A stretch of 64,000 bases of DNA from Paraescarpia echinospica (lineage: Eukaryota; Annelida; Polychaeta; Sabellida; Siboglinidae). The notes beneath the pieces were generated by a model that was given only the letters and a program-made list of their open reading frames with translations, was not told the origin of the DNA and searched no databases. The stretch is from the NCBI GenBank assembly GCA_020002185.1, contig CM034539.1:2054758-2118757 (forward strand), given 5' to 3'. Both the position numbers and the translations under genes were made by a program. Positions 41,596 through 61,594 of this stretch are shown here, piece after piece. Every line of letters starts with the position of its first letter. Position 1 is the first letter of the stretch.

Positions 41596-41737
41596 TCGCG
41601 CTAACCACGCTAAAACCATGGAACATTCGTAGTCCTCAACGCTGACGTAATGCGTTTGTAGATTCGAGAGGCCACCTAGCGGTAACCGGGGCAAAATCTT
41701 AGGGATCGAAAGGTTAGTCGCAACTTTTTATTAGTGG

Positions 41738-41745
41738 TATATAAG
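41738..41745 (+). promoter_or_regulatory. TATA box upstream of the NADAR gene
   Basis: TATATAAG, 35-42 bases before the ATG at 41780. It is the first promoter-like signal inside the left end and could drive the closely packed plus-strand genes. Confidence 0.6.
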
Positions 41746-41779
41746 CGGTGGCGGTAGCGGGTGATCGGTAGTCGGTACG

Positions 41780-42322: not shown

Positions 42323-42920
42323 GACGACGTTCGTCGAGCGTTTGATACGTTACGACACTATGATCGATCCGCCGCCGGAGAAAATCCTGTGGTGTTACGG
42401 ACAGTGGCAGAGCGGCTACGCGTCTATGTCTTCGAAAATAGAGTTCGTAGACGGCCTGCCGGATCCGAAACGTTTAGACGGTAAAGCGAGAACGCTTCTA
42501 GTACTCGACGACCTCATGGAGGAGACCGATAGCCGGGTGACGGTACTATTTACTAAAAAAAGTCATCATTGTAATACGTCGGTCGTACAATTACGTCAGA
42601 ACATGTTTCCGAAAGGGAAAGAAAACCGTACAATCAGCCTGAACGCTCAATACATAGTGCTATTCAAGAGTCCTCGAGACGCGGGTCAAGTAGGTCACCT
42701 AGCGAAACAGATGTACCCGGGAAAGGTCAACTACATGATAGAGGCTTTCAAAGACGCGACGTCGTCGGCGTACGGGTATCTATTCGTGGATCTGAAACAG
42801 GAAACGGAAGAGGACATGCGTTTGCGTACGTGCATATTTCCGGACGATGACCTTCAGTACGTGTACGTACGGAAGGGTGGCGGCGGTGGTGGTGGCGGCG
42901 GCGGCGTCGGCGGACTATAA
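42258..42920 (+). CDS. ATP: Genome-packaging ATPase (A32/FtsK-HerA type)
   Basis: 220 codons. Walker A is GPTGCGKT (residues 16-23) and Walker B is LLVLDDL (80-86). A conserved VQLRQNMFP segment follows, then the NAQYIVLFKSPRDAGQV strand-helix region. Size and motifs fit the short Polinton packaging ATPase related to poxvirus A32, which drives DNA into the capsid. The C-terminus ends in a poly-Gly tract. It overlaps the NADAR gene by 65 bases, implying a shared or tightly coupled transcript. It is intact. Confidence 0.93.
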   Translation: MNGPSLKHPFTCIVAGPTGCGKTTFVERLIRYDTMIDPPPEKILWCYGQWQSGYASMSSKIEFVDGLPDPKRLDGKARTLLVLDDLMEETDSRVTVLFTKKSHHCNTSVVQLRQNMFPKGKENRTISLNAQYIVLFKSPRDAGQVGHLAKQMYPGKVNYMIEAFKDATSSAYGYLFVDLKQETEEDMRLRTCIFPDDDLQYVYVRKGGGGGGGGGGVGGL

Positions 42921-42958
42921 GAAGAGAGGGACGACGGGGCGTACGTTTATTAGTCGCT

Positions 42959-43372
42959 ATGACGGGGCGCGTGACGGGAGCGAAGAGACGACCGAAGGTG
43001 GCGGGACCGACGAATCAAATAAAGAGACACATCGTCGCCCTGCAGCTGTTGGAGAGACATAGGCGGAACATCGCTCTGCGAAAAGCGCTACTCGCCCACG
43101 CGGACACCGGTCTCATTTGTAGTCTGTGCGATTGCGCGTACAACATTCTGAAAGTGAACGTGAAGTTGTCGCCGAAACAGAAACGCGTATTGTCGAAATA
43201 CCGGGATCATCTGCGTAAACTCGTCGACAAACACGTGACGCGTAAGCAGAAGCGTGTCATCTTGCAAAAGGGTGCGGGTGGTTTTTTGACGGCCCTGCTA
43301 GCGCCGTTAGCGAGTACCGTTATCTTGCCGCTGCTCAGACAGGTGTTCGGCGGTGGCGCCGGCGGTAATTGA
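42959..43372 (+). CDS. Conserved small Polinton protein, basic with hydrophobic tail
   Basis: 137 aa. The basic N-terminal half is followed by LSPKQKRVLSKYRDHLRKL, then a KQKRVILQKGAGGFLTALL hydrophobic C-terminal helix. This layout (charged helices, KxxILxQxGG, hydrophobic tail) is familiar next to capsid genes of animal Polintons. The function is not known; a minor virion or membrane-active role is possible. Its stop overlaps the next start (TGATG at 43370-43374). Confidence 0.7.
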   Translation: MTGRVTGAKRRPKVAGPTNQIKRHIVALQLLERHRRNIALRKALLAHADTGLICSLCDCAYNILKVNVKLSPKQKRVLSKYRDHLRKLVDKHVTRKQKRVILQKGAGGFLTALLAPLASTVILPLLRQVFGGGAGGN

Positions 43373-44142
43373 TGCAGTACGCGAAGAAGATGGCGTTGGT
43401 CGATCCACGATTGGTGGAAAGCCTCCTGCCACGCGTCGATCAGTCGTCGAGCACGCCTCGATCACGTGTGCTGAGTAGTCTTGACAGCGACATGAAGGAC
43501 ATTCTAGAACGTTCGGATTTATCGGAACGAGAAAAGGTAGCGTCGTACAATCAACTGCTGAGTCGGTACAATACGATAGAGGCGGCTCGAGCGGCGCAAC
43601 CGGTACGCGTGTCGGTGGTGAACAGCGGCGAGACACCCGCGGTACCGGTGGCGCCAGCAGCGGCGGCGGCGGCGGCGGCGCCACCATCGTCGGAGACGAT
43701 AGAGCGCGAAATCGTAGCCAGTATGCCGAAAACGTTGAAAGAGAAGACGAGACTGCTGATCGAAAAAATGAAAGCCGATCCGTTGTCTCGATGGAACGAT
43801 CGCGGTGAATTCGTGTACGACGGTAAAGCGATCGCGGGGAGTAATATGGTCGATCTAGTAAACGATCTCATGCGAACGAGATCGAAGACGACGGCGCCCG
43901 TAGGATGGCGGGAGTTCGGATTGCACATGAAGGATATGAATATCCCTATGGAATTCGTAGGCAACCCGCGCTATCGTTCGTACGTGGAGCGACGACGGAA
44001 GCGGCTACTAGAAGAGAGGATGACGAGACCGTCGACGTCTAGTTCATCAGCAGCGCCGACTGAGCGGAGACGTCGTATGCGAGGCGAACCTAAACGCAGA
44101 TCCGTTTCGATGGACGTCACGGCGTGGGATACGTTGTCGTGA
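43372..44142 (+). CDS. MALVDP-family Polinton protein
   Basis: The ATG at 43372 (TGATG overlap) is preferred over the upstream TTG; 256 aa. The N-terminal region contains KMALVDPRLVESL and DILERSDLSEREKVASYNQL. An Ala/Pro-rich linker follows (about residues 85-105). The C-terminal domain has VASMPKTLKEKTRLLIEKM, GSNMVDLVNDLM and PVGWREFGLHMKDMNIP. The tail is Ser/Arg-rich. Homologous sequence, with an N-terminal zinc finger, lies at 22828-23885. It is conserved among Polintons but unassigned; its place between ATPase and integrase suggests a structural or assembly function. Confidence 0.8.
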   Translation: MQYAKKMALVDPRLVESLLPRVDQSSSTPRSRVLSSLDSDMKDILERSDLSEREKVASYNQLLSRYNTIEAARAAQPVRVSVVNSGETPAVPVAPAAAAAAAAPPSSETIEREIVASMPKTLKEKTRLLIEKMKADPLSRWNDRGEFVYDGKAIAGSNMVDLVNDLMRTRSKTTAPVGWREFGLHMKDMNIPMEFVGNPRYRSYVERRRKRLLEERMTRPSTSSSSAAPTERRRRMRGEPKRRSVSMDVTAWDTLS

Positions 44143-44330
44143 TGACGACGTCACGACGCGCGATCATCATCGTCGTTGTCGTCGGTTTCATCATCGCGCT
44201 TATCGCGTTCTGTATCATCGTATCATCATCGTCGTCGTCGTCGTCATGGTGTCCGGGTGGAGTCGTCGTCGTCCAAAACGAAAGCCTCGACAGCAACGAA
44301 ACGTCGACGAGGACGACGACGAGGAGCTGA
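44142..44330 (+). CDS. Small single-pass membrane protein
   Basis: 62 aa, with ATG overlapping the previous stop (TGATG). One strong hydrophobic segment, residues 7-28 (IIIVVVVGFIIALIAFCII), is followed by a serine run and a hydrophilic tail with N-E-S and N-E-T glycosylation-type sites. The integrase gene overlaps its 3' part in another frame. No family is recognised. Confidence 0.55.
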   Translation: MTTSRRAIIIVVVVGFIIALIAFCIIVSSSSSSSSWCPGGVVVVQNESLDSNETSTRTTTRS

Positions 44331-45385
44331 ATAACGCGTACTTCGATCCGAAACGGGTGGGGAGTTACGGAGGCGTCGACGCGTTGCACCGGGCGTCGAA
44401 GCTCCGACGTCCGGCCGTCGAGAGGTGGCTAGCGTCGCAGGACGCCTATACCCTACACAAACCGGTTAGACGTCATTTCAAACGACGTCGCGTCATCGTG
44501 GGCGGTCGAAACCAGCAGTGGCAAGCCGATCTGGTCGACTTGACTAGACTGAAAACGCACAACGACGGTATAACATTCCTATTGACGGTGATCGATGTGT
44601 TTTCGAAGCGGGCGTGGTGCGTTCCGTTGAAGAATAAGTCCGGAGCGTCGCTCGTCGCGGCCTTCGAGCGCCTGCTGAACGACGACGACGAGACGCCGCA
44701 CACGCTGCAGACCGATAAGGGGAGCGAGTTTTTGAACCGACCCCTGCAAACGTTGCTAAAGAGTCGCGGCGTTCATCATTTCGTGACGCATAACGAGGAG
44801 ACCAAAGCGAGCGTCGTGGAACGGTTTAATCGAACTTTGAAGACGCGTAAGTGGCGCTATTTTACGAAACACGAAACGCTGCGCTACGTAGAGGCGTTAC
44901 CGGATTTCGTGCAATCGTACAACAACGCCTACCACCGAAGCATCGGTAGGACGCCGGCGAGTGTCGACGCGACGAATCAGGAGGCCGTATGGCAACGACT
45001 GTACGGGGGTGGCGACGACGTCGAACGACGACGAAAACCGAAACTACGCGTGGGAGATCGCGTACGTATCAGCAAGACGAGGGGTCATTTCAAAAAAGGA
45101 TACATGGCTAACTGGAGCGAGGAGCTGTTCACCGTCGTAGAGGTGCACCCGTCCGAACCGCCCGTTTATCGCCTCAAGGACGACGCCGAGACGCCGATAG
45201 AGGGCACCTTCTACGAACCGGAACTACAACGCGTAGTCGTTCCGAAAGACAAACTATATCGCGTGGAGGCGGTTCTTCGGCGTCGTCGGCGTCGTGGCGG
45301 CGGTTCGGAGGCGCTCGTAAAATGGAGCGGATATCCGGCCTCATTCAACAGCTGGATCGACGCCGAGTCGCTCGTGGACCTATGA
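44246..45385 (+). CDS. INT: DDE integrase with C-terminal chromodomain
   Basis: 379 aa. The catalytic triad is D95 (QADLVDL), D157 (TDKGSEF) and E192 (VVERFNRTLK), with exactly 35 residues between the second D and E, as in retroviral/Polinton integrases. The core is followed by an SH3-like region (RVGDRVRI...KGYMANWSEELFTV) and a chromodomain at about 337-379 (YRVEAVLRR...VKWSGYP..FNSWI). It joins the element ends to the target, giving 6-bp duplications; the chromodomain may steer insertion to modified histones. The N-terminal HHCC zinc motif is not obvious. The ORF is intact. Confidence 0.95.
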   Translation: MVSGWSRRRPKRKPRQQRNVDEDDDEELNNAYFDPKRVGSYGGVDALHRASKLRRPAVERWLASQDAYTLHKPVRRHFKRRRVIVGGRNQQWQADLVDLTRLKTHNDGITFLLTVIDVFSKRAWCVPLKNKSGASLVAAFERLLNDDDETPHTLQTDKGSEFLNRPLQTLLKSRGVHHFVTHNEETKASVVERFNRTLKTRKWRYFTKHETLRYVEALPDFVQSYNNAYHRSIGRTPASVDATNQEAVWQRLYGGGDDVERRRKPKLRVGDRVRISKTRGHFKKGYMANWSEELFTVVEVHPSEPPVYRLKDDAETPIEGTFYEPELQRVVVPKDKLYRVEAVLRRRRRRGGGSEALVKWSGYPASFNSWIDAESLVDL

Positions 45386-45669
45386 TGATGAATCGTTGGA
45401 CGCGTCACACCGGCTGCTGGCGACTGCACGAGGCGGGACTATGCAACGGCTCTTCGTTCTTACCGTATAAAGGTCCCTGTTGCATCGACAGGGCGCAGTG
45501 GCGCGACGATGTGCGACGACGACGAAACTACCTCGAGTGGCGAGAGTCGAACGAACGCCGAAGAATCGTCCGTCGTCGACGACGAACGCAACGCGGACTC
45601 CATCGACGCTACAACAGCAACCGCCGCCGAACCCGTTCAATGGCGAAACTGCGGCAACGAATGCCCTAA
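45382..45669 (+). CDS. Small Cys/Arg-rich protein, unassigned
   Basis: ATG at 45382, one of three in a row in TATGATGATG overlapping the integrase stop; 95 aa. The N-terminal half has GCWRLHEAGLCNGSSFLPYK, then GPCCIDRAQW. The C-terminal half is strongly basic and overlaps the next gene in another frame, so that part may be a by-product of overlap. No family is recognised. Confidence 0.45.
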   Translation: MMMNRWTRHTGCWRLHEAGLCNGSSFLPYKGPCCIDRAQWRDDVRRRRNYLEWRESNERRRIVRRRRRTQRGLHRRYNSNRRRTRSMAKLRQRMP

Positions 45670-45859
45670 GGCCGAAATCGTGTTCCTCTGTCAGGTCGTC
45701 GTCCTGTACTTCGTCATCGCCGTTAGTATATACAATCTGACGAAAGGTCAAGGTGACTCCAACCTGTGGACGGCGCTGTTGAGCAGCTGTCTCGGTTACC
45801 TGCTCCCGAGTCCGTCTATGAGTGTCGGTCGACGACAACGCGATGGCGGTCTCGTCTGA
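45509..45859 (+). CDS. Conserved Polinton transmembrane protein
   Basis: 116 aa. An acidic Ser/Thr-rich N-terminus (about 45 residues) is followed by CGNECPKAEIVFLCQVVVLY, a membrane segment, and then LWTALLSSCLGYLLPSPS. The KxEIVxxCQVxxxY...LWxxLLSSCLGYLLPxP pattern is familiar from animal Polintons next to the penton gene. The function is unknown. Its last codons overlap the penton start. Confidence 0.75.
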   Translation: MCDDDETTSSGESRTNAEESSVVDDERNADSIDATTATAAEPVQWRNCGNECPKAEIVFLCQVVVLYFVIAVSIYNLTKGQGDSNLWTALLSSCLGYLLPSPSMSVGRRQRDGGLV

Positions 45860-46721
45860 CTTTTACCTGACGCTGCCGAGCAACGCGTCTATGAAACGTC
45901 ACCCCGAAAATACGTTGACGCACTACGTCACGACGTTGCCGCGACGTTTCGACCTGTCGGGGGAGTGGGAATGCGGCGCCGTGTCGGTACAGTATCCGCA
46001 CACGTGGTACAACGTGAGAAAGAAGGACGCCTACTTCTATCTGACTTGCGCGGCGGGCGAACGGGGCGTTTACACGCAGATAGACGAAGAAGGCACGACC
46101 GTGCTGATATATCGTCAGACGACGATTCCTCACGGTTTCTACAACAACATTTATACGTTGTGCAACAGGATCAACGAGGCGCTAGAGAAATTACACACCA
46201 GCAAGGCCAAGGCCGTGCTAGAATACTGCGCCGTCTCTAACCGCTTTACGCTACGTTTGTCGGCGGGTGTCGAATTTATCATACCTCATACGAGCCGTCT
46301 GAGACACGTGCTAGGTTTCCATAGCAACACGATCATGAGTTCGTCCGCGTTCGGTCCCGCGCCGGCGACGAGACCCGTCATCAGCACGTCGCCCGCCGCG
46401 TACACGTTCGAGTACGAAGGTCGCGATACGGTGAACATGTCGGCGGGCATCGAGAGTCTGTACGTGTACACGGATCTCGTGGAACCGCGCGTCGTCGGTG
46501 ACGTGTTCGCGCCGCTGCTTCGAAACATCGCCGTCCGCGGTGACAACGGTGACGTCGTTTCGGAATCGTTCGTTCGCGTGCAATACGTTAAGCTGATGCG
46601 GAATCAATTCGACGAGGTCGAAGTCGATATAAGAGACGATCACGGCCAACCGATACCATTCGAGCAGGGGAAGGTGGTGACGACGCTTCACTTCAGACGT
46701 TGTAAATCGAAATTGTTTTAA
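45843..46721 (+). CDS. mCP: Penton (minor capsid) protein, single jelly-roll
   Basis: The ATG at 45843 is used (the upstream GTG at 45822 is disregarded), giving 292 aa. The N-terminal FYLTLPSNASMKRHPENTL, followed by a strand-rich region with WECGAVSVQYPHTWYNV, is the hallmark of Polinton penton proteins. Known members form the pentameric vertices of the predicted icosahedral particle. It lies just upstream of a basic protein and the MCP, as usual. The ORF is intact. Confidence 0.85.
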   Translation: MAVSSDFYLTLPSNASMKRHPENTLTHYVTTLPRRFDLSGEWECGAVSVQYPHTWYNVRKKDAYFYLTCAAGERGVYTQIDEEGTTVLIYRQTTIPHGFYNNIYTLCNRINEALEKLHTSKAKAVLEYCAVSNRFTLRLSAGVEFIIPHTSRLRHVLGFHSNTIMSSSAFGPAPATRPVISTSPAAYTFEYEGRDTVNMSAGIESLYVYTDLVEPRVVGDVFAPLLRNIAVRGDNGDVVSESFVRVQYVKLMRNQFDEVEVDIRDDHGQPIPFEQGKVVTTLHFRRCKSKLF

Positions 46722-46722
46722 C

Positions 46723-47121
46723 ATGTCGTCGAAGAACCCGTACGTGGACTACTACGTTCGTCAGGTCGGCGGACAGCTGCCGGTCTTCGTCGGCGCTCGG
46801 GGTCAACGAGGTCACGGTCTGGGTAATCTCTTCGGGAGTCTGTTTCGAAGCGCCATGCCGCTTATCAAGAGGGGCGCGATGGCGTTGGGAAAACGGGCGC
46901 TCAACACCGGCATGCACGTGGCGCGCGACGTCGTCGCCGGCGGCAATCTGAAACAGTCGCTAAAAAGGCGCGCGAAGGAGGCCGGCGCCGATCTTCTCGA
47001 CGGCCTATTGAATCCGCAGGCGGCGGCGCCAAAGAAGAAGAAGAAGAAGCAAAAAAAAGACGCAGCGCCGTCCCCGCGTCGGCGTAAAGAGAGCGCGCTT
47101 AGCGGCGACGACCGTCAGTAG
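46723..47121 (+). CDS. Basic minor virion-like protein (pVI/pX-like, tentative)
   Basis: 132 aa. GHGLGNLFGSLFRSAMPLIK is followed by an amphipathic GAMALGKRALNTGMHVARDVVAGG and a Lys/Arg-rich C-terminus with a poly-Lys stretch. This protein is usual between penton and MCP in Polintons. Composition suggests a DNA- or membrane-interacting capsid component, comparable to adenovirus core or cement proteins, but that is inference. Confidence 0.7.
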   Translation: MSSKNPYVDYYVRQVGGQLPVFVGARGQRGHGLGNLFGSLFRSAMPLIKRGAMALGKRALNTGMHVARDVVAGGNLKQSLKRRAKEAGADLLDGLLNPQAAAPKKKKKKQKKDAAPSPRRRKESALSGDDRQ

Positions 47122-47166
47122 GCGGAAAAGAGCGCGTCGAACGGACATATTCGACGAGTAACGACG

Positions 47167-47313
47167 ATGGAGCGCACACTCGAGAACGGCGGTCAGTTCT
47201 ACCAGTCGCCGTACTTTCGAGTGCGCGTCGTAGTGGTGGTGATGGCGCCGCCGCGCGGAGGAGATTCGATCCTGCATACGCTATTAAGTCAACTCGACGT
47301 AAGAAAAACCTAG
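47167..47313 (+). CDS. 48-codon ORF before the MCP
   Basis: MERTLENGGQFYQSPYF start; contains a short Val-rich stretch and ends HTLLSQLDVRKT. It sits in the otherwise empty gap between the basic protein and MCP. The about 60 bases before its ATG duplicate those before the MCP ATG. No family is recognised. Confidence 0.4.
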   Translation: MERTLENGGQFYQSPYFRVRVVVVVMAPPRGGDSILHTLLSQLDVRKT

Positions 47314-47363
47314 CTAGCGGCGACGGTCGTCAGTAGGCGGAAGACGTCGAACGGTCGACAACG

Positions 47364-48656
47364 ATGGCGTTCGTGAACGGTTCGACGTGCGAGGGCGTGA
47401 AGGCCGAACTGGAGCTGTTCAGCGGACCGGTGACGCAGACGAGCATCGAGAGTAGTCATTGGACCGTCTACCAGCCGCTGACGACTCTCGACGCCGGCGG
47501 CCCTATCGAGTTCCTCGTGCCGGGTTCGGGCGAAGACTATACGGACCTGGCGAGCATTCAACTGTACGTGCGCTTCAAAGTGACGCAGGGGGACGGTACC
47601 GATCTGGCGGCCGCGGCCGCGGTGGCGCCGGTCAACAATTTCCTGCATTCGATGATCAGTCAAATCGACGTGTCGCTGAACAACACCCTCGTGACGCCGT
47701 CGACCAATACGTACGCGTACCGGGCCTACCTCGAGACGTTGCTAAGTTACGGTAGCGACGCGAAACGTTCGCATCTCACGGCGTCGTTGTGGTACAAAGA
47801 CACCGCCGGACGGATGGACACGCTCGGCAACGCCAACGTCGGTTTCGAGTCGCGACGCGTCGCGACGGCCGATAGCCACGAGGTGGAGATGATGGGACGC
47901 CTGCACGTCGACGCGTTTATGCTAAACAAACACCTACCGAACGGCGTCGACACGAAAGTGCGCATAGTGCGCGCGAAGGACGCCTTCTCGCTGATGGGCG
48001 CGCAAGTCGTACCGGGGTGGCGCATCGTGCTGCAGGCGATTCGACTGCACGTGCGAAAAGTGAAGTTGAACCCGGCCGTCCAGATGGGACATATCAAAGC
48101 GTGGGCGTTGGGAACGGCTAAGTTTCCGATGCGTCGCGTCGACTGCAAATCGTTCTCGATAACGGCGGGCGCGCTATCGAACGTGCACGAGAACCTGTAC
48201 ATGGGCGCGATTCCGAAACGCCTCTTCCTGATGATGATCGACAACGTCGCCTACAACGGCGACTACACTAGAAATCCGTTCGACGCGCGTCACAACGACA
48301 TAAACTTCCTGTCGCTCGTCGTCGACGGACGTCAGGTGCCGAGCAAGCCGCTGCAGCCGGACTTCCCGCACAACCGGTACGTGCGCAGCTACATGAATCT
48401 CTTCGAGGCGACCGGAAAGGCGTTCGAGGACGAGGGGAACGACGTTTCGCGCACGGACTTCGGCGCCGGCTACAGCATCTTCGGTTTCGACCTGACCCCC
48501 GACTGTTGCGACGGCGATCATTTCAACGTCGTGCGTCAGGGGTGCGTGGGCGTCGATATGCATTTCGAGACGCCGCTAGCGCGTCCGGTGAACGTCGTCG
48601 TGTACGCGGAATTCGAAACGGTGATGGAAATCGACCGGAACCGGAACGTCATTTAA
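47364..48656 (+). CDS. MCP: Major capsid protein, double jelly-roll
   Basis: 430 aa, a usual length for Polinton MCPs. Recognised by family features: N-terminal ELELFSGPVTQTSIESSHW, GPIEFLVPGSGEDYTDL, INNxL-like NNFLHSMISQIDVSLNN, AYRAYLETLLSYG, and a C-terminal YSIFGFDLTPD followed by PVNVVVYAEFE. Known homologues form hexon-like trimers with two jelly-rolls. The ORF is complete, so structural genes of this element are undamaged. Confidence 0.93.
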   Translation: MAFVNGSTCEGVKAELELFSGPVTQTSIESSHWTVYQPLTTLDAGGPIEFLVPGSGEDYTDLASIQLYVRFKVTQGDGTDLAAAAAVAPVNNFLHSMISQIDVSLNNTLVTPSTNTYAYRAYLETLLSYGSDAKRSHLTASLWYKDTAGRMDTLGNANVGFESRRVATADSHEVEMMGRLHVDAFMLNKHLPNGVDTKVRIVRAKDAFSLMGAQVVPGWRIVLQAIRLHVRKVKLNPAVQMGHIKAWALGTAKFPMRRVDCKSFSITAGALSNVHENLYMGAIPKRLFLMMIDNVAYNGDYTRNPFDARHNDINFLSLVVDGRQVPSKPLQPDFPHNRYVRSYMNLFEATGKAFEDEGNDVSRTDFGAGYSIFGFDLTPDCCDGDHFNVVRQGCVGVDMHFETPLARPVNVVVYAEFETVMEIDRNRNVI

Positions 48657-48670
48657 GACTGGTAGTAACT

Positions 48671-49126
48671 ATGGATACGTTTCAACTGATGCGTCGTCTG
48701 GAACTCGATACGTACGCTAAACGTATCGTCGTCGGCGTCGTGCCTAAAGACGCGCTACTTACCGCCGCCGCCGGCACCACCTACCCGACGGCTTTCGTGT
48801 GCAACACCGACGACGGCGGCGAACCTGGACAGCACTGGGTGGCCGTCTACGTCGGCGCCGACCGACGAGGCGAGTACTTCGATTCGTACGGTCTGCCGCC
48901 GCTGCACGCCGACTTCCGCGCCTTCCTGCGCCGCCACTGCGGCGACGCGTGGACGTACAACGACAAGCGCCTGCAGAGCGTCATCTCTAACGTGTGCGGA
49001 CAATATTGCGTCGCCTACCTTCTCCTCCGATGTCGCGGGATGCCGTTGACGACGTTCCAGAGCCTATTCGGCACCGATAGGGTGAACAATGACTGTCTCG
49101 TACACGATTTATTAAAACCTCATTAA
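48671..49126 (+). CDS. PRO: Adenain-like cysteine protease
   Basis: The ATG at 48671 is chosen because upstream in-frame codons overlap the MCP and look non-coding; 151 aa. GQHWVAVYV (His55), EYFDSYG (Asp71) and CGQYCVAYLLLRC (Cys113) give the His-Asp-Cys triad of the C5/Ulp1-like fold. The family matures virion proteins by processing precursors. AATAAA follows at 49144-49149. Confidence 0.93.
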   Translation: MDTFQLMRRLELDTYAKRIVVGVVPKDALLTAAAGTTYPTAFVCNTDDGGEPGQHWVAVYVGADRRGEYFDSYGLPPLHADFRAFLRRHCGDAWTYNDKRLQSVISNVCGQYCVAYLLLRCRGMPLTTFQSLFGTDRVNNDCLVHDLLKPH

Positions 49127-49143
49127 CCACCGCTTGTAGTAGA

Positions 49144-49186
49144 AATAAAAACGAACAAATGATGTATACAATTGTTGGTGTTTATT
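49144..49186. terminator. Back-to-back poly(A) signals of convergent units
   Basis: The plus strand has AATAAA at 49144-49149, 18 bases after the protease stop. The minus strand has AATAAA at 49186-49181, about 95 bases after the polymerase stop. They end the capsid-side and polymerase-side transcripts in a gap of about 150 bases. Confidence 0.65.
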
Positions 49187-49280
49187 ATTACCCACACATA
49201 CATACATACATACAGAAACTACCCCTAGGGGGGGTGGTGGGGGTTAGGTTAGTAGTAGACGAGTTAGACGAGTTTACGAG

Positions 49281-52200
49281 TTAGACGAGTATCGGCGCCG
49301 TAGTGACGCCGTCGTCGAGCACGCGGCGTTTAGCGTAGAAGTAGCTCAACGCCGCGCGCTCTTGAACGTACGTCAACACGGACGAGTCTTTCACTTGGAA
49401 ACCGCGGTTCCAGCCGACGCCGTTGCGACGGTCGCGCAGTACGGCGAGGAAGGTGTGCTCGTCGATGTCGGCGTTCTGTCGCTTGCTGAGCCCCTTCGTG
49501 CTGTACTTCGGACCGGCGACGCCGCCGAAGCAGTAGTAGGTTTTGCTGCACAGCGCCACGATCCCGTCGCCGCGCCACTATTCTTTGAAGAGACCCGGCG
49601 TTCGACGATCGAACAGGCGTCGGCGCGCGCAGCAGGCCGCCTCGCCGTCCCACGCTAGTCCGGCGACGCGCCGTCGTACGTAGGCGTCCACGTGCGCGTC
49701 GCAGCATTCGGCCGGAAACCAGAGCGAGCGATTCCGGAAGTAGTGTTCGCGACGTTCTTCCGGTACGAGCGCGTCGACGTCACGTCCGGCTAGGGCTATG
49801 TACGCCGAGTCGGTGTCCATAGCGCAGTACTGGAAGAGCGGACGGGGAATGTAGGCGTCGACGAAATCGTAATAAAATTCCAGCATTCTCAATTTTGCGT
49901 ACTGCAATACGAAATAGCCGATATGTATCGGCAGGCCGTAGACGATTTTACGCTTATTCAGCGCCACCTCGTACAGCGCGTCGTCGACGACGACGTCCAG
50001 TTGCCGGAAGCGCCGATTGTTGACGAGCATCGACGCGCCGACCGGCGTCGCGTACTTGATTTCCCGGTGCCGATCGACGCGCGTAATCGTTTTCCCGTAG
50101 GAACTGTTCCCGAGAAGTTTAAATGTATCGGCGATGATCGATTTGTCGGGATCGATATCGCCCTCGCGGCGCGCCGTCGAAACCGCGTCGCCGAAGCGGC
50201 GAAAGCACGCTATCGGCGCGTACTCGACGATCTGGTAGACGCGCTCGACGACGAGCCCGTGCGCCAGATACCAGCGTAGGAGCGGCGTCGCGAGCAAGAT
50301 CGCCGCGCCGAAGTAGCTACCGACGAGCGTGCGTTGAGGTCGCGTGAGGAGATCGTGCGATTCGGCGTAGTCGCGCATGAACGGGCTGAGATCGTCGCGC
50401 ACGATATCGACGTTCTTGAATACCGGCTGCAACTCGGCGAATTTGTCGCGCAGCGCTTCCGGTACGGCGATATCGCACTGCACGAGGCCGAACAGAGAGT
50501 CGTCGCGCACCGCCTCCAGTATCGTCGAGAGCGTAATGGCGGCGGTCGGTTGCCATCGTGACGCGTCGGGCGGCGTCGGCACCGCCGGCGGTTGCACGGC
50601 GTGCCACTGGCACTCCCACATTTCGACGACTTCTTCGACGAAACGGCGCAGGTAGGCGGTCACGGCGATCGTCGCGGCGTACAGCGTCGTCATCGGTTGA
50701 CCGTTGACGGCGTTCGTCGTCACGTGCGCCTGACACGTCGGGCAACCGTGAAAATAGCAGCCGTGAAATTGGTACGCCGTTCGCGTGGCGGCGCACCAGC
50801 CGTCGACTCGGTGCTTTCCGATGCGCTTCTCGCGTCCGTTCAACTGGTGACGTATACGCGCGCCGGTTTCCGCCTCCACGCGCGTCAACCACTCCACGGC
50901 CATACGACCGTAGCGGTGCACGCGTTCCGCTCGAAAGGCGTTCTCAGCGCGTCGGCGCGTGTACCAGCCCGTCGGCATCTCCTGCATTATCGCCCATAGA
51001 TAGAGGCCGTTTGCGTCGAAGCCTACTATCGATCGGCACGGCGCGCCGCCACGAATCGACGTCACGTCGGCCTCGTGGTGGCGCGCGAAGATGATCGACG
51101 GGCCGCCGACGATCTGCGCCTGCAGCAGACGGTGCAGATCTTTGTTCGGCTCGTTGAAGAGCGAGAAATGGATCGACTTCGGCAGGTCGTTGAACAGGTA
51201 CAACAACGTCAACCCCGGTACGCTGATGGCGTCCTTGAACATGTCGATACGTCGGCGCCGATAGAAGGCGAACTGGCGATCGACGGCCTCGAGAAACGGC
51301 GCCACGTCACGATTGTTATACCACACAAGAAAATCGCGCATCGACGTCATGCCCTCGTCGCGCCACGCCGTCGCGCAAATCTCGTACGCCTCCGCGGAGA
51401 TTCCCTCGCGTTTCAGCTGGCTGTAGAAAGCTTCGCGCGACGGCAGGGCGGTTTCGTCCAGACGCGACAACGCGTCGATGTGCTCGTACGGGAAGTAGCC
51501 CTTCGTTGCCGAGCAACCGTACGCTTTCAGAAAACTATCGTAGCTAACGCCGGGCGCGAGGTAATTCGTTATGTCCAGGAACTTCAACGTCGTCGTCGAC
51601 AGGCACATGTAATTGTTCTGACGTTTAATGGTAAACGCCGACGACGTGTGCTGCGCGTCGTCGGTTATGAGCAGGGGGGTCAAGTACTTTTTGACGACGT
51701 TCAAGTCGTACTTACCCGAATTAAATCCCAATACGGGCATTTGTCGAAGGTGAAGGGCGATGCAGGTGAAGGGCGATGCATCGGAAGAGACACAGATGGT
51801 CGTCGTAGGGCGCGCCTCGAACATCGTTCGTCAACGACACGATGGACCTGTTGAGGCGCACGTAGGCGGGAAGCGTCGTCACGCCAACGCAGCCGATAGG
51901 ATGATTGATGATGACGTTCACGAAGTAGGTGGCGTTAGTTACGAGCTCGACGATCCATCCCGAGTCGGGACGCTGCGCGATGGCGTACTGCAGTACGTCG
52001 GTAGTGCGCACGGCGTCGAGGAATCGTTCGAATGAACGGCTATCGGTAACTAGGGCGGGTGTTTCGAGGAGGCGTCCGCAACAGTTACACGAAGAATGAA
52101 AATATCGGTACCGACCCGACACCTTGTGGCGTAATACAAAACCATAACTAACGTTAATTTTAAACGCGTTCTTTTGCGCGCGAAACATTTCCCTCAGACG

Positions 52201-52584
52201 CGGTTCGAGTACGCGCGTACTCGTACAGGCGGTCATACGATAGTTGTAACGCGACTGTATGACGCCGCGCGCCACCGACGTCTCTATGCTACGCCGGTGC
52301 TCGTCTACGACACGCTGTAGATCGTCGGGCGACGGCGGCGCGCTAGCGGCTGCCTCCACTGATTCGCTACTAGGTGGCGACGAACGGCCACACTGCAGCC
52401 TCAGATGTCGTAGCATAGCGTAACGCGTGGTGTATAGCTTGCCACATTTTGGACACTCTCGACCTTTTACGCATAGCGCTTCGTCGCCGCACATTTTCGA
52501 ACTCTTTAAGTGTCGTTCTAACATCGACTGCGTCGCGAAATAGCGCCCACATTTCGGACATTGCCATGACGATGGTGGTGGCAT
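49281..52584 (-). pseudogene. pPolB: Protein-primed DNA polymerase B, three lesions
   Basis: The first frame starts ATG at 52584, with two C2HC-type fingers (CPKCGRYFATQSMLERH and CPKCGKLYTTRYAMLRH) and the DDHLCLFRCIALH segment. At 51749-51780 a perfect 16-bp tandem duplication shifts the frame. The next frame (51824-49578) has ExoII (GFNSGKYD), ExoIII (YNNRDV), pol motif A (DANGLYLWAI), B (KLLGNSSYG) and C (YCAMDTDS). The ExoI DxE region normally between the CIALH segment and ExoII is absent, pointing to an internal deletion. A TAG at 49580-49578 cuts off the last about 100 codons (CSKTYYCFGG...NRGFQVKD...LSYFYAKR), which stay open in frame. Replication by this copy is therefore unlikely. 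Confidence 0.9.
51749..51780. repeat. Perfect 16-bp tandem duplication in pPolB
   Basis: GGTGAAGGGCGATGCA occurs twice without a spacer. Sixteen is not a multiple of three, and the two polymerase frames differ by exactly this offset, so this duplication is the cause of the frameshift. Confidence 0.9.
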
Positions 52585-53019
52585 TCTCTCTAATGAATAT
52601 GTTTCGAGCGTCGCTATTTATAACGGCGACGGTGACGGTGGTGGTGGTGGTAAGTACACCCTAGCGGGAAGAATGTGTGGTGGTGGTTTTTCTAACTAAC
52701 CCTAGCGGTGGTGTGTAGCGGGAAGCTTTTTATAACTGTGTGGTGGTAGTTTTTCTAATTAACCCTAGCGGTGGTGTGTAGCGGGAAGATTTTTCTAAGT
52801 GTACACCCTAGCGGGAAGAATGTGTGGTGGTGGTTTTTCTAACTAACCCTAGCGGTGGTGTGTAGCGGGAAGCTTTTTCTAACTGTGTGGTGGTGGTTTT
52901 TCTAACTAACCCTAGCGGTGGTGTGTAGCGGTGGTTTTTCTAACTAGCGGTGGTTTTTTCTAACTAGCGGTAATTTTTCTAACTAGGTAACTCGGAAACG
53001 GAAAGAACATTTTCAACGT
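52585..53019. repeat. G/T-rich tandem repeats between pPolB and the spliced gene
   Basis: Repeats of AACCCTAGCGGTGGTGTGTAG and TGTGGTGGT(G/A)GTTTTTCTAA, about 60-120 bp periodic, fill 52620-52990. No gene. They lie upstream of pPolB (transcribed leftward) and downstream of the 53-55 kb gene, so they could serve as a pPolB promoter region. Confidence 0.6.
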
Positions 53020-53025
53020 TTTATT
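53020..53025 (-). terminator. Poly(A) signal shared by the alternative exons
   Basis: AATAAA on the minus strand, 73 bases after the stop of the last exon at 53098. No other AATAAA was noticed between the earlier exons, consistent with one 3' end for all spliced forms. Confidence 0.6.
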
Positions 53026-53097
53026 CGGTACTTTTACAACAGTGTGAAGCCTTCGTTTCGATAGCAAGCAAATGTTCTCTATTCTACTAGTGTTCGT

Positions 53098-53748
53098 TCA
53101 TTCAAGTCCGCTCCGACGTTGCACGTACGTGTGCACGGCCGACTCGAGTTGCACGCGATTCATGTAATCTCGCCAATTCGTCCCCAACAACCAGTTGGAT
53201 ACGAATTGGACCAAATACAATTCTCCTGCACGGCCCGTTTGCGGCTGCTGATCACCGGAAGAAATCGTCACCGTAGTCTCGCTTAATATATGGACTAGTC
53301 TCGTAAAACACGGAATAAGTGATCGTCGTAGGAACGTTTCCATGACCTCGTTGAAGTGCCGCGTCACGATACACCCCGGCTTAACGTAACGTTGCATGTA
53401 GACGCGATTCGGCCGCCCCGCGCGATAGCCGGCCATGTGAACGTAGGGGCAGCCTTCATTTGATTCGCATAGCCCGCAATGGTCTCGTGCCTTCTCCAGA
53501 ACCATTTCGCCGATAGTCTCGGCGATGAGATCCATAGCCAGTCGTTCGTAACGTACGATCAACTGACTCCGGCTCGGCACGACGAGTTGCCGACACGTCC
53601 CCAGCTCCTCCGATACGCTCCAGTACGGTCCCATCGTCGCCAGGCTGTCGTTATACGTCGGTGGAGGGGGGCGCGTTCGGGGCGATCCCAGCGCCTCCTC
53701 AATTATCGCCTCCAATACGTGAGCGTCACGTACTCCTCCGCCACTACC
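53098..53748 (-). CDS. Alternative 3' exon E (216 codons)
   Basis: It has no ATG at its beginning: the open frame starts immediately after the acceptor TTTGTGCTGTAG and runs 216 codons from GSGGGVRDAH. It is in phase 0 with the donor at 54726. Visible features are PPPPTY (a PPxY late-domain type motif) near residues 27-32 and a possible zinc site HCGLCESNEGCPYVH. No family is recognised. An internal start at a later Met is an alternative, but would discard much of the conserved-looking N-terminus. Confidence 0.6.
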   Translation of the reverse strand, partial: GSGGGVRDAHVLEAIIEEALGSPRTRPPPPTYNDSLATMGPYWSVSEELGTCRQLVVPSRSQLIVRYERLAMDLIAETIGEMVLEKARDHCGLCESNEGCPYVHMAGYRAGRPNRVYMQRYVKPGCIVTRHFNEVMETFLRRSLIPCFTRLVHILSETTVTISSGDQQPQTGRAGELYLVQFVSNWLLGTNWRDYMNRVQLESAVHTYVQRRSGLE

Positions 53749-53766
53749 CTACAGCACAAAGCAGTT

Positions 53767-53850
53767 CTACTCTTTACGTGATATCACCGTCAGCAACGCG
53801 TGTATGAAGTCGCTCATGCATTCACGTCTGGTGTGTTGCATCAGAGCGTC
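53767..53850 (-). CDS. Alternative 3' exon D (27 codons)
   Basis: After acceptor ATGTGTTGTAG the frame reads DALMQHTRRECMSDFIHALL plus seven codons and TAG. Phase 0 with the donors at 54726 and 53945. Predicted helical. Too short to classify. Confidence 0.4.
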   Translation of the reverse strand, partial: DALMQHTRRECMSDFIHALLTVISRKE

Positions 53851-53869
53851 CTACAACACATTATTATGA

Positions 53870-54022
53870 TTAGTCCTCATCCTCCTTCTTCTCCTCCTCC
53901 TCCACTGACCCCGCCGGCACACCCCGTTCCAACAACGTTCTTACGAACGTTGCAACCTCGTCGTACTGAGCGCGAATCCTTTCGTTGTTCGCAAGCATTT
54001 TTTGGAGTACGCAGCGCACTTC
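53870..54022 (-). CDS. Alternative 3' exon C (50 codons)
   Basis: After acceptor TTTATGTGCTTTAG the frame reads EVRCVLQKMLANNERIRAQY and ends in an acidic EEEEKKEDED. It contains its own donor-like TTC|GTAAGA at 53945, also phase 0, so C could be an internal exon leading to D or E. The branch point TACTAAC before its acceptor overlaps the stop of exon B. Confidence 0.5.
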   Translation of the reverse strand, partial: EVRCVLQKMLANNERIRAQYDEVATFVRTLLERGVPAGSVEEEEKKEDED

Positions 54023-54045
54023 CTAAAGCACATAAAGCACAACTG

Positions 54046-54240
54046 TTAGTACATCAAACTACTACGAAATAGGCTTGCTTCATAGGCCAACCAAAACGCT
54101 CTTATATATTGTTCGGCCGACTCGGCTAATAGTTCAAAGCTCTGCTTGCTTAGTTCCAGCCCCTGACGATCTCTCATTCGTTGTCGTTCGTTGGCGTGCT
54201 TCAATAAATCTACCAGTAGCGGCCAATTTTCCTCCTCTTC
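54046..54240 (-). CDS. Alternative 3' exon B (64 codons)
   Basis: After acceptor TTGTTTGTAG the frame reads EEEENWPLLVDLLKHANERQ followed by a charged helical region to SSLMY and TAA. Phase 0 with the 54726 donor. No ATG at the start. Strongly helical, perhaps coiled-coil. No family is recognised. Confidence 0.5.
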   Translation of the reverse strand, partial: EEEENWPLLVDLLKHANERQRMRDRQGLELSKQSFELLAESAEQYIRAFWLAYEASLFRSSLMY

Positions 54241-54266
54241 CTACAAACAACACAACAACAACAACA

Positions 54267-55025
54267 TTAGTCATCGTCGTCGTCATATCTTTTTAGTGTG
54301 CGGACTGTATACGAGGGGTCCCCGTTCCAAGTCGTCTTCCGCACACTAATCTCCACTTTAGTACCGGTTAACTCGAGCACGGTATCGCGGAGATCCTCCT
54401 CGTTCAATTCCGTCAGGTACTCGGCCGTGAACTCGACGAGATTAGACATTTGGCTATCGAACAACGTAAGCCAAAGCTCATCTTCGTCCTCCTCGCCGTC
54501 CTTCACCATCACACGCAACGCGAAGAAATATTTCGGTACAAACACTTCCCCGTGCGTTCGACATATCAGGACCCCGTCTTTGTTTGTCTGTAATTTCCGG
54601 CGACAACGGGAACATCCCAAATAGGTGGTGCCGGGTTCGCCTTTGTACGAGACGGCCTCGATCATAACGGGTGACAGGATTCTATATACGCCGTTGACGG
54701 CGCACTTCAGATGTCTCAGACTCACCGCTGTGGCGCGTGTCGACGCCGTCGATTCACGTTCCATCGAACCGCTCCGCGACAGTACCGGGGGCTGCGCTGC
54801 CGTCTCGTCGGGCTGTTCCAAGCGCGCCTCTTCGGCGCTTCGTTTTCGGCCGACCGTCAACGGGGCCGCGATCAGCGTAACGGGACGCTTAACTGGCGGT
54901 GACACCCCCGTTGACAAGGCTGCAATCAGTGCCGAAGGTTGACTGCTGCTGGCCGCCGCCTTCATCGACTGCTTACGCGGCGCCTTCGACTTTTTTGTTT
55001 GTTGTTGTTGACTTTCATCCGCCAT
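54267..55025 (-). CDS. RPA70-C-like OB-fold protein; shared first exon
   Basis: Unspliced, 252 aa. Residues 1-100 are disordered (Gln/Lys/Ala/Ser-rich) and end exactly at a donor GCG|GTGAGT (exon end 54726, phase 0). Residues 101-252 resemble the C-terminal DNA-binding domain of replication protein A 70: YLGCSRC...LICRTH gives a C-x2-C-x13-C-x2-H zinc ribbon, then FFALRVMV...LWLTLFDSQMSNLV. RPA70-C normally has four cysteines; here the last ligand is His. A single-strand DNA-binding role in element replication is likely. Splicing at 54726 would replace the whole OB-fold by exon B, C, D or E, each in phase. Confidence 0.7.
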   Translation of the reverse strand: MADESQQQQTKKSKAPRKQSMKAAASSSQPSALIAALSTGVSPPVKRPVTLIAAPLTVGRKRSAEEARLEQPDETAAQPPVLSRSGSMERESTASTRATAVSLRHLKCAVNGVYRILSPVMIEAVSYKGEPGTTYLGCSRCRRKLQTNKDGVLICRTHGEVFVPKYFFALRVMVKDGEEDEDELWLTLFDSQMSNLVEFTAEYLTELNEEDLRDTVLELTGTKVEISVRKTTWNGDPSYTVRTLKRYDDDDD

Positions 55026-55055
55026 GTTGCGGAAGAACGTCTGCTGCTTGCTGCT

Positions 55056-55125
55056 CTGTAGAAAGAATACACGGTTAGAAGTTCGGCGTCATACAATATA
55101 ACATTTTCTCACCCGTTTTATACCT
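55056..55125 (-). promoter_or_regulatory. TATA-like box and possible 57-nt leader intron
   Basis: Minus strand: GGTATAAAACGG (TATA 55117-55123) lies about 95 bases before the ATG at 55025. Overlapping it, CGG|GTGAGA (exon end 55113) and TTCTAAC...TTTCTACAG (55056) form good splice signals for a very short 5' UTR intron. Both cannot be used together with the usual TATA-to-start spacing, so one of the readings is wrong. Confidence 0.4.
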
Positions 55126-55214
55126 TTTCCAAATAACACGCATGCGCACTTCACCCTAATACGTCATCTTATTCAATTATCAGTGTGAGTGCCTCGTACA
55201 TTTCAGACATTTTG

Positions 55215-55935
55215 TTTTCGAAAAAAAGCATCCGGTCACCTCGGTACATTCGCCGTTAAATCTCTCCTTACATCGATGTTCTCTAATATCGATGCACCTC
55301 GCGTGTCCTGACTCCACAGAGAATCTATACAACGTTTAGTTTCGTGCTTTTAACGTTTCGTTTATTGTTTTTGAAATGTCATTGTCTACACTATAACGCG
55401 CATGCGCACTTCACTCATATCCTTATCTTTTTTCAATTATCGTCGCGCATACTTCATCCAACCCAGGCATTTTGTTTTTGGGAAAAAGTTAGCGTTCACG
55501 TCAGTGCATACATCGTCAAATGTGACTTTTACCGCAAATTTCTCTAATATCCATGCATCTCGTGTGTCCTGATCCCCCAGCGATCTTATACAACGTTTTA
55601 TTTCGCGCTTTTAACGTTTCATTTATCGTTTGTAAAAATCCATTGTTCTCCGTTCACATTCCAACTCGTTAAGTCACGCGCAACAGATGTCACACATGTG
55701 CGCTTAACGCATTCCGTTTACTCTCCGAGGAATTTGTTTTAGGAAAAAAAGCTAACGTTGACGTCTGTGCATTCATCGTCAAATGTGACTTTTACCGCAA
55801 ATTTCTCTAATATATAAGCATCTCGTGTTTCCTGACCCTCCAGTGATCGTATATAACGTTTAATTTCGTACTTTTAACGTTTCGTTTAACGTTTGTAAAA
55901 ATCCCTTTGTTCTCCGTTCACATGTCAATCAAAAT
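55215..55935. repeat. Three ~260-bp tandem units upstream of the OB-fold gene
   Basis: Units begin near 55220, 55480 and 55741. Each has GGAAAAA(A/G), a CGTCAAATGTGACTTTTACCG-like box, TTTCTCTAATAT, ATCTCGTGTGTCCTGA and TTTTAACGTTTCGTTTA. The block lies between the divergent genes at 55025 (minus) and 56045 (plus), so it is a good candidate for a shared enhancer or replication control region. Confidence 0.6.
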
Positions 55936-56044
55936 CAGTCGTAGTGACATGCGCCACCGCCACCGCTGTTTTCACGACGCGCACATTTCATACACGCTTT
56001 TACAACCACGCAAACACGTCGTCTCCACCCATCGCTCTCACAAC

Positions 56045-56978
56045 ATGGCCACAACGAAACCACGGTAAGACATTTTATTTAAATGCACGTTTTTATTGTT
56101 GTATTTAAACAGTGCTTACTATAACATGCATGCATTTTATTTAAATGCATGTTTTTATTATTTAAATGTTTTACTAGTATGCACGTTTTTATTGTTGTAA
56201 TGCATGTTTTCACTAGTTTTGCATGCATGCATTTTATTTACTTCAAATATTTTATTTATTTATTTATTTTTCACTAGTTTTACCGTTTAAACATGCATGC
56301 ATGCATTTTATTTAAATGCACGTTTTTATTGTTAAACACATGTATTTTTAACATGCATACATTTTATTTAAATGCACGTTTTTATTGTTGTTTTATTTAA
56401 ATTGTTTTATCGTTTAAATGCATGTTGTATTATTTAATGCATACTAGTACGCATTTTACCGTTTAAACATGCATGCATTTTATTTAAACAATGTATTTTA
56501 CCAATAATTTCAATTTACTATCTCACTCATTTTATTCATCCTTTGTCTATTTCATAGACCGATCCAACTGCCTACAAGGGACGGATATACCCCGCGTAGG
56601 GCGATTGTCCTGCCCGACGCGTCGACGACAAAGTCGACACCAACATGCAAGGTCACGCCGTCCGTCCGTCCGCCAGCTTCGCCAGCGTCGGCGTCCAATG
56701 TCACAGCAGCAGCAGCTTACTACAGTGACGATGAAATTGTTCCCGATCTAGCGCGAGTGTTTCTCATGAAGCTACCTAACGGTTTATGGAGAACACTAAC
56801 GCCTCCAGAAATCTATCGGCGGGAAGGCTTCGGTCTTCCGCCGGAGATCGCCTCCTCGCCGGCGACCGACAGGCGCCAACAACTCTATCGGCGGGAAGGC
56901 TTCAGTCTTCTGCCGGCCTCCTCGCCGGCGACCGACAGGCGCCAACCCGTCGGTCGCGGGCGAACGCTGCTATATTAA
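56045..56978 (+). CDS. Two-exon gene, MATTKP leader joined to repeat-bearing protein
   Basis: Exon 1 is 56045-56064 (ATG, six codons plus two bases) with donor CACG|GTAAGA. The intron (56065-56557) is AT-rich with many TTTAAATGCATG units and ends TTTGTCTATTTCATAG. Exon 2 is 56558-56978. The joined frame is open for 146 residues. It contains YYSDDEIVPDLARVFLMKLP and a tandem protein repeat, YRREGFGLPP...SSPATDRRQ and YRREGFSLLP...SSPATDRRQ. AATAAA overlaps the stop (56977-56982). No family is recognised. Its position at the right end opposite the OB-fold gene suggests an early or regulatory role. Confidence 0.6.
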
Positions 56979-57123
56979 TAAATATTCCAGTCACTACTCA
57001 CGTTTTCACGCGTCAATTTTCAATGCATAAACACCCTACTGAATGTTAGTGTATTTATGCATTTGATAATCCCACGACTAGACGTATTTAAACGCATTGC
57101 TTTCGTTTTAATCCGTCCACCAG

Positions 57124-57268
57124 AACAACGCCGTTAGCCAGCTATGCTGTCATCCAGGGGTCAAAGACCAGTAGGGCAGCAGCCCTTATCGCTGCAGCAG
57201 TCGTCGTCGCTCCTCTTGCTGTCAACATCACATACGGGGACATCTCAACGTTTATACAATGGTTTTAA
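57124..57268 (+). CDS. Alternative 3' exon for the MATTKP leader (membrane tail)
   Basis: After acceptor AATCCGTCCACCAG an open frame, entered in phase 2 exactly as exon 2 of the preceding gene is, runs 47 codons: TTPLASYAVIQGSK, then RAAALIAAAVVVAPLAVNI (a hydrophobic segment), ending ISTFIQWF. Joining to the same leader would make a short membrane protein. It has no ATG in this frame. An overlapping ATG frame at 57144 is less protein-like. Confidence 0.45.
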
Positions 57269-57574
57269 TACACAATGGTTAGCGTATTGCTTACGTCAGC
57301 ACAACTCCTACCCCAGCGTATTGCTTACGTCAGCACAACTCCTACCCCAGTTATAGGTGGTCCGTTTATACAATGATTTTAATACACAATGGTTAGCGTA
57401 TTGCTTACGTCAGCACAACTCCTACCCCAGCGTATTGCTTACGTCAGCACAACTCCTACCCAGTTATAGGTGGTCCACTTCACTTCACTTTAGCGTGGTT
57501 ATAAAGTACGAAACTAAACTTATATACTTTAGCATGGTTATAAAGTACGAAACTAAACTTATATACTTTATTAT
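57240..57574. repeat. Subterminal tandem repeats at the Polinton right end
   Basis: A ~115-bp unit (GTTTATACAATG(G/A)TTTTAAT...CCTACCC(C)AGTTATAGGTGG) occurs twice, each holding two GCGTATTGCTTACGTCAGCA boxes. These are followed by two copies of TTTAGC(G/A)TGGTTATAAAG. No gene is called. Confidence 0.75.
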
Positions 57575-57904
57575 TAAACGCATTATTGCTTACGTCAGCG
57601 CGCTCTAGGTACGACGTTGATCGCTAGGACTAAAATACTCTCTGCACTCACCGCTAGGTGGCATCTCTCTAGTGTACTGTCAATCATCCAATTAGTATCA
57701 AATTACATCGCTCATCAATCACGTTTTTTATAAGTAGGTTTCCCAAACTCATTAGTGTCAACCACAAAGCCTTTGATCTTTTTTTATGCATAGGATTAGT
57801 CTCGCATTATTGCTGACTCAGCGGTGTGCTCGAAAACGATTAGTGGTCATTAAATTCTTTTTTATAAGTAGGCTTTTGAGATCGTACAGGTCCTACTATC
57901 TACT
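57575..57904 (-). repeat. Polinton right terminal inverted repeat
   Basis: 330 bp, complementary to 41266-41595, with three differences found by eye. Confidence 0.92.
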
Positions 57905-57910
57905 CAGGTA
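57905..57910. repeat. Right target-site duplication CAGGTA
   Basis: Identical to 41260-41265. It immediately follows the last base of the terminal repeat. Confidence 0.9.
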
Positions 57911-60510: not shown

Positions 60511-60544
60511 TAAGCCAAAGGGTTTCCTTGTCCACCTGCCATTT

Positions 60545-61560: not shown

Positions 61561-61594
61561 ACATGTCCGTTGTTTGTTTCTGGTAACAAGTAAC

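Follow-up and report, generated by a model that had tools for sequence, protein, structure and literature searches.

The window analysed here, a stretch of 64,000 nucleotides from the siboglinid annelid Paraescarpia echinospica (GenBank assembly GCA_020002185.1, contig CM034539.1, positions 2,054,758 to 2,118,757), contains a Polinton (Maverick) element. The gene region under study lies on the minus strand at the right end of this element. It comprises a first exon A, an OB-fold frame that continues A without interruption, and four downstream open exons, B to E. A preliminary description had proposed that these parts form an alternative-splicing hub. The features are listed below in the order of transcription, in coordinates of the window and with the supporting evidence in brackets; pN/pS is the ratio of nonsynonymous to synonymous differences.

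55116..55122, minus strand: TATA box TATAAAA, 97 nt 5' of the ATG of exon A
54726..55025, minus strand: exon A, predicted common N-terminus, 100 codons, ending GCG and followed by GTGAGT (pN/pS, conservation)
54720..54725, minus strand: only 5' splice site kept among the copies, GTGAGT, phase 0 (GT in 58/58 readable copies)
54270..54725, minus strand: RPA-C-like OB fold bearing zinc-ribbon residues, read through the retained intron (Pfam, profile match in PDB, pN/pS)
54049..54240, minus strand: exon B, predicted alternative C-terminus, 64 codons, phase-0 TAG acceptor (conserved 63/65, pN/pS)
53873..54022, minus strand: exon C, predicted alternative C-terminus, 50 codons, phase-0 TAG acceptor (conserved 60/66, pN/pS)
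53770..53850, minus strand: exon D, predicted alternative C-terminus, 27 codons, phase-0 TAG acceptor (conserved 60/62, pN/pS)
53101..53748, minus strand: exon E, predicted alternative C-terminus, 216 codons, phase-0 TAG acceptor (conserved 62/68, pN/pS)
53020..53025, minus strand: AATAAA, common 3' end (no more than 150 nt past the E stop in 51/55 copies)

Exon A (55025–54726) with its phase-0 donor, the four exons starting at 54240, 54022, 53850 and 53748, each in phase 0 directly 3' of a TAG and lacking a starting ATG, and the AATAAA at 53025–53020 all stand where the preliminary description had placed them. Its assignment of the unspliced frame to an RPA-C-like OB fold agrees with a match to Pfam Rep_fac-A_C (E-value 2.7e-8, 34.2 bits, cut-off 28.5). 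The unspliced A-OB product has 252 amino acids (aa), and its stop (54269–54267) falls within CTAAT. TACTAAC is found 22 nt 5' of the exon C acceptor. In each of B–E the open stretch is longest in phase 0, narrowly so in C (50 codons vs 47 and 26), and in the window copy (L001) the first ATG comes after 21 codons in B, 8 in C, 3 in D and 38 in E. The chance of four matching acceptor phases had been put at 1 in 81. The phase matches are real; the figure is weak, referring to a single copy and to open reading frames (ORFs) chosen by eye, and is replaced by the comparison of 68 copies given below.

Conservation of splice sites and frames among copies

The comparison included 68 copies from the window's own genome (1.08 Gb), the window copy among them. 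Two genome searches provided the candidates, one with A-OB (best 150 of 2848 candidates scored) and one with P0002, a relative of E (best 150 of 1971 candidates scored). The eight best A-OB matches including the window (L001–L008) and the 20 best E matches (L009–L028) were taken, together with 40 copies chosen by hand from the remaining 130 (L029–L068). Given that the copies were selected via A-OB or E, the presence of these parts is no evidence, whereas the presence of the other parts is. Identity to the window E is as low as about 54% (L015), and all six parts are open, by the length limits used, in 26 of the 68 copies. L027, in which B, C, D and OB gave no match, and L067, which was sampled without its upstream part, were kept in the acceptor denominators and dropped from clustering. 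At 90% nucleotide identity the 66 clustered loci form 10 groups (35, 20 and 4 loci and seven single copies).

A phase-0 exon frame opening directly behind TAG is kept in 63 of 65 matches of B, 60 of 66 of C, 60 of 62 of D and 62 of 68 of E. Eleven of the 16 exceptions match only from residue 18 or later, and we read these as probable frameshifts or lost fronts; in five of them the front and its TAG are visible ahead of the break (C in L012, L014, L029 and L052; B in L019). The front is reached with no TAG before it in four more (E in L034, D in L038, B in L040 and D in L065), and the last exception is L067. The donor GT is present in all 58 readable copies, as GTGAGT in 52, GTGAAT in three, and GTTAGT, GTGAGG and GTAAGT in one each. 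By majority within the 90% groups, the donor is GTGAGT in 9/9, and the acceptor pattern holds in 9/9 groups for D, 10/10 for E, 7/9 for B and 7/10 for C, the groups failing for B and C being single copies.

The distances between the parts vary in a way that bears on how they are linked. The spacers from a stop to the next exon take all residues modulo 3 (residues 0/1/2: OB-B 24/13/13, B-C 5/8/43, C-D 3/27/24, D-E 24/31/2), and all three genomic frames relative to A occur as well (0/1/2: B 22/16/18, C 10/23/21, D 12/24/17, E 13/15/27). Inside the exons, the phase from the acceptor to the conserved codons is constant despite these shifts. Stop-codon readthrough or frameshifting would link the frames without splicing, in keeping with their head-to-tail arrangement; it is refuted by the variable frames, and we give it practically no credence. 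Continuous reading fails for the same reason. Only splicing to a common donor would preserve the register, and one phase-0 donor fits.

Splicing might also chain A-B-C-D-E in one mRNA, as in an ordinary multi-exon gene, and the window copy does contain donor-like sequences in C (GTAAGA) and D (GTAAAG). However, each exon has its own stop, and the gap from a stop to the next part is 15–31 nt, five zero-length cases aside, in a count covering gaps below 60 nt. Moreover, a donor-like site (at least 7 of 9 positions) marks the A donor in 53 of the 58 loci, as against 5 such sites in B, 4 in C and 8 in D; with the 7 in OB, only four of these other sites are in phase 0 (three in C, one in OB). A contains 11 more, four of them in phase 0; the 28 in E are all in other phases. 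No second conserved donor was found in this count over the 58 loci. Since donor-like sites are conserved solely at the A donor, we regard a chain of all exons as highly improbable, although C may be joined to D in some copies.

Signals at the two ends of the unit recur among the copies. Of the 41 copies with enough upstream sequence, 34 have TATAAA or TATATA within 140 nt 5' of the first in-frame ATG. AATAAA follows the E stop within 150 nt in 51/55 copies, and the interval from the donor to the E stop is free of A[AT]TAAA in 51/55. The stop lies inside CTAAT in 48/52 copies for OB and 52/60 for C, so that the likely branch point coincides there with the stop codon; for B and D the stop is in a branch-point-like [CT]TAA[CT] in 15/63 and 0/60 copies, respectively.

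Pooled pN/pS was calculated for each part from 48 to 61 open copies, with pairs that were almost identical or very distant omitted. In every part the lowest value is that of the spliced (for A and OB, in-frame) reading: 0.53 for A (1.20 and 1.41 in the other frames), 0.35 for OB (1.61 and 1.55), 0.58 for B (1.04 and 1.28), 0.50 for C (0.74 and 1.27), 0.62 for D (1.27 and 1.13) and 0.29 for E (1.31 and 1.82), which is the most strongly constrained part. Constraint extends to the codons ahead of the first ATG, with pN/pS of 0.41 in E (median 42 codons), 0.53 in B (19), 0.50 in C (8) and 0.71 in D (3), and hence reading should begin 5' of the first ATG.

This constraint bears on two further alternatives. 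If B–E were independent genes, each with its promoter and start codon, the internal ATGs could serve them, most of these coming after 8 codons in C and after 3 or 11 in D. Such starts had been named in advance as the observation that would speak against a hub, and the constrained codons ahead of the first ATG, longest in E and B, contradict them; besides, some copies have no ATG at all in the exon (B 3/61, C 1/56). We consider independent genes extremely improbable. Under trans-splicing, a spliced leader or other RNA would be joined at each TAG and B–E would be separate messages. The acceptors do follow closely behind the preceding stop, as in an operon. Yet a leader lacking an in-frame ATG would not explain exons that have no starting ATG and are constrained ahead of the first one, there would be no need for phase 0 relative to the A donor, and the GT of that donor is kept in all 58 readable copies. 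Trans-splicing is therefore very unlikely.

The region is thus very probably one transcription unit working as an alternative-splicing hub, with one N-terminus and different C-termini in at least five proteins. The coding frames, donor, acceptors, their phase, the terminal stops and the single 3' signal are established at the level of sequence; the junctions themselves are presumably made as follows. One promoter and one 3' end would give a single pre-mRNA. Left unspliced, it would be read from A into the OB fold to yield the 252-aa RPA-C-like protein. Alternatively, the single phase-0 donor at 54725 would be joined to one of the four phase-0 acceptors, giving A-B, A-C, A-D or A-E; each product would end at the stop of its exon, the remainder serving as 3' untranslated region. 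The family of proteins with a common N-terminus and interchangeable C-termini suggested by the preliminary description gains support from the conserved donor, acceptor and phase pattern. This pattern, for which an alignment of related copies had been called, is present in the sampled copies, and a like pattern is seen in three more distant lineages.

Several points weigh against this reading. The copies share ancestry, so the counts are not independent, and there are just 10 groups at 90% identity. The pN/pS of B and D is only modestly under 1, and the evidence is thinnest for the short exon D. The codons at the donor are Ser AGT in 47/47 copies (rank 1 of 54 positions) and Val GTG in 49/51 (rank 13 of 54); the choice of donor codons is therefore scarcely stricter than elsewhere, in a test that is weak because other codons are conserved too. 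Two exact-pattern proximity scans for spliced retrocopies, with A adjoining E, gave 0 cases, a weak negative, and exon A found nothing among 5.8 billion proteins within a length window admitting A-B, A-C and A-E fusions. Finally, intact vertebrate Mavericks are reported to lack introns (PMC8097293).

A changing exon array and more distant lineages

The array of exons differs among copies of the window family. Five copies of the lineage L009–L015 (L010–L013 and L015) carry between C and E an extra phase-0 exon, C2, with a branch-like signal. C2 may be a relative of C (weak alignment, E-value 5.8e-4, probability 29%). In a tree of E, four C2 carriers and L009 fall on one supported branch. No match to exon D was found in L010, L013, L014 and L015. 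L022 has an additional phase-0 C-like exon between B and C, at about 1075–1185 in coding orientation; by eye its front reads like C and its end like B.

A genome search with Rep_fac-A_C (best 150 of 1240 candidates) led to twelve further places, which fall into family 2, family 3 and the single copy L079. These more distant lineages appear to be Polintons, judging by the by-eye likeness of neighbouring ORFs in L069–L072. OB identity among the four lineages is about 25–50%.

In family 2 (L069, L070, L072–L078), where the OB was detected by BLAST, its identity to the window OB is about 25%. All nine copies have a phase-0 donor about 20 codons into the OB gene (GTAAGT in seven, GTAAAT and GTAAGC in one each). 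Exon X2, of about 205 codons where intact, has a phase-0 AG acceptor in 9/9 copies (TAG 3, CAG 5, AAG 1) and no ATG for at least 65 codons in eight of the nine. Exon X1 follows a phase-0 TAG in 7/9 copies and has an ATG after 7–10 codons, which counts in favour of independent genes; X1 may use its own start codon. By eye, X1 seems to hold two copies of one domain (TIPRV..LR..G..L).

Both copies of family 3 (L071, L080) have a phase-0 GTAAGC donor and a phase-0 CAG acceptor opening an exon of 187 and 170 codons with no ATG in its first 50 codons (L071 1388–1949, L080 635–1145, coding orientation). The exon includes a CLACE...HHDC segment resembling the cysteine segment of E. Comparison with E gave a weak alignment only (E-value 0.003, probability 10–11%), and homology is not claimed. 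At L079 the OB is 49% and E 49–54% identical over about 145 residues. Here the donor is GTGAGA in phase 0, a TAG precedes a C-like exon, and a stretch resembling E has no placed acceptor; exons B and D were not found there.

The three more distant lineages thus appear to share the plan, in 12 copies in total, with very few copies for family 3 and L079. The hub on the RPA-like gene might be ancient and general within a large branch of Polintons, predating the split of the four lineages, its exon array growing and shrinking modularly from one exon in family 3 to two in family 2 and four in the window family, with C2 and the L022 exon as extras; we advance this tentatively, at somewhat short of even confidence. 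Adenoviruses are thought to descend from the Polinton world. If the hub is indeed old, splicing of the adenoviral early-region type was present in the Polinton world or arose there in parallel. A conserved hub also makes it testable whether such splicing predates adenoviruses.

Predicted products and known systems

A profile of 12 OB sequences matched DNA-binding domain C of RPA70 in PDB (6i52_C, E-value 7.8e-7). The window OB shares with that domain the four putative zinc-ribbon ligands C38, C41, C55 and H58, which are invariant in the 12 sequences. RPA70 is a multi-domain protein, whereas the window protein has one recognised OB domain behind exon A. To judge by this domain, A-OB is probably the single-stranded-DNA-binding protein of the element for protein-primed replication. 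Exon A contains the basic segments KRPV and GRKRSAEEA, which would be of nuclear-signal type. Two motifs of E are conserved in an alignment of 17 sequences (A1):

53653..53664, minus strand: PPTY (PPxY-type) motif, P30 and Y32 invariant, P29 nearly so
53437..53478, minus strand: C-x2-C-x5-C-x3-H segment, C91, C94 and H104 invariant, C100 nearly so

PPxY motifs recruit WW-domain ligases, and the PPTY motif suggests that E recruits WW-domain ubiquitin ligases; the cysteine segment is a possible zinc site. As for the short tails B, C and D, they are probably modules for interaction; A-B to A-E would target the host cell or the regulation of the element.

B, D and E were without a Pfam match, and the only one for C, TetR_C_24, fell below cut-off. 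The E profile found no convincing relative in PDB (best 0.081). The AlphaFold model of E, made from three sequences, is poor (mean predicted local distance difference test score 50.6) and helical, and no fold is drawn from it. The E segment WLLGTNWRDYM may resemble BH2 motifs of Bcl-2 proteins, a likeness that we do not claim. Profile comparisons did not reveal B, C, D and E as mutual duplicates. Searches with E alone, the E alignment, OB, the capsid-candidate ORF described below and the exon A region gave no relatives outside this genome apart from P0002, the only other return being the window's own protein.

The nearest described arrangement, as far as the consulted sources go, is that of adenovirus E1B, so that the early-region likeness drawn in the preliminary description was apt. 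Human adenovirus E1B has one donor inside the 496R frame, three acceptors and 79 common N-terminal residues; E1B-496R comes from unspliced RNA, and 93R, 156R and 84R from spliced RNA (PMC9663300). By its predicted layout the Polinton gene works in the E1B style, with one donor in a large frame, an unspliced product, several acceptors and a common N-terminus. It differs in the unspliced product, here an RPA-C-like OB fold, in having four acceptors, and in that B–E matched no Pfam family above cut-off. Pfam includes E1B families. No homology to E1B proteins was detected by Pfam for B–E or with the 17 E sequences, which gave chance-level matches only; B–D are short for detecting remote homology.

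Adenovirus L4-22K and L4-33K likewise have their first 105 aa in common, one being made from unspliced and the other from spliced RNA, according to PMC4346872. They are two products only, of a late gene, and their sequence relation to the Polinton proteins was judged by Pfam alone. Some protist Polinton-like viruses are reported to carry self-splicing group I introns (PMC12220804), an intron kind other than that of the hub.

The polyomavirus T antigens also have a common first exon, one product being read into the intron and others spliced. They belong to an unrelated virus and have fewer C-termini.

The preliminary description knew of no Polinton gene organised in this way, and in the consulted open-access literature on Polintons, Mavericks and adintoviruses we likewise found no description of a comparable hub gene. 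If the conserved hub is real, gene catalogues of such elements may miss whole proteins, since gene calling would mistake or overlook B, C, D and E, none of which has its own start codon. With so many copies in one genome, the element also offers a handy natural experiment on splice-site constraint.

The host Polinton and its setting

The element and its boundaries are as follows.

41266..57904, no strand assigned: Polinton element, 16,639 bp (terminal inverted repeats and target-site duplication; integrase and ATPase genes by Pfam)
41266–41595 and 57575–57904: terminal inverted repeats, 330 bp, 99% identity
41260–41265 and 57905–57910: target-site duplication CAGGTA, 6 bp, flanking the element on both sides

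Like described Polinton/Maverick elements, it combines terminal inverted repeats and a 6-bp target-site duplication with a chromodomain integrase (Pfam rve 6.8e-13, Chromo 4.8e-8) and a packaging ATPase of FtsK/A32 type (Pox_A32 25.6 bits vs cut-off 22.8; Adeno_IVa2 24.3 vs 21). The match to protein-primed DNA polymerase B, DNA_pol_B_2, is under the cut-off (E-value 3.7e-5, 23.3 bits vs 25.8), and the frame is broken in the window copy. There the polymerase gene (49578–52584, minus strand) consists of two overlapping frames, 49578–51824 and 51721–52584, and looks frame-broken, with C2H2-type fingers in its upstream part. The 430-aa ORF at 47364–48656, a candidate for the double-jelly-roll major capsid protein by position only, had no match in Pfam; a further ORF, a candidate for the adenain-type protease, lies at 48506–49126.

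The Polinton is within or close to a large palindrome. Among the 25 of 30 inverted-repeat pairs listed in a comparison covering 30000–64000, long inverted repeats at 30000–34843 and 57913–62528 (86–96% identity) flank the element and start 9 bp past its right end, and a second pair, 34856–35464 / 40660–41265, adjoins its left end. Short repeats around GTTAGAAAAACCACCGCTA, noticed by eye, lie at 52820–53010, in the interval that separates the polymerase gene from the 3' end of the hub.

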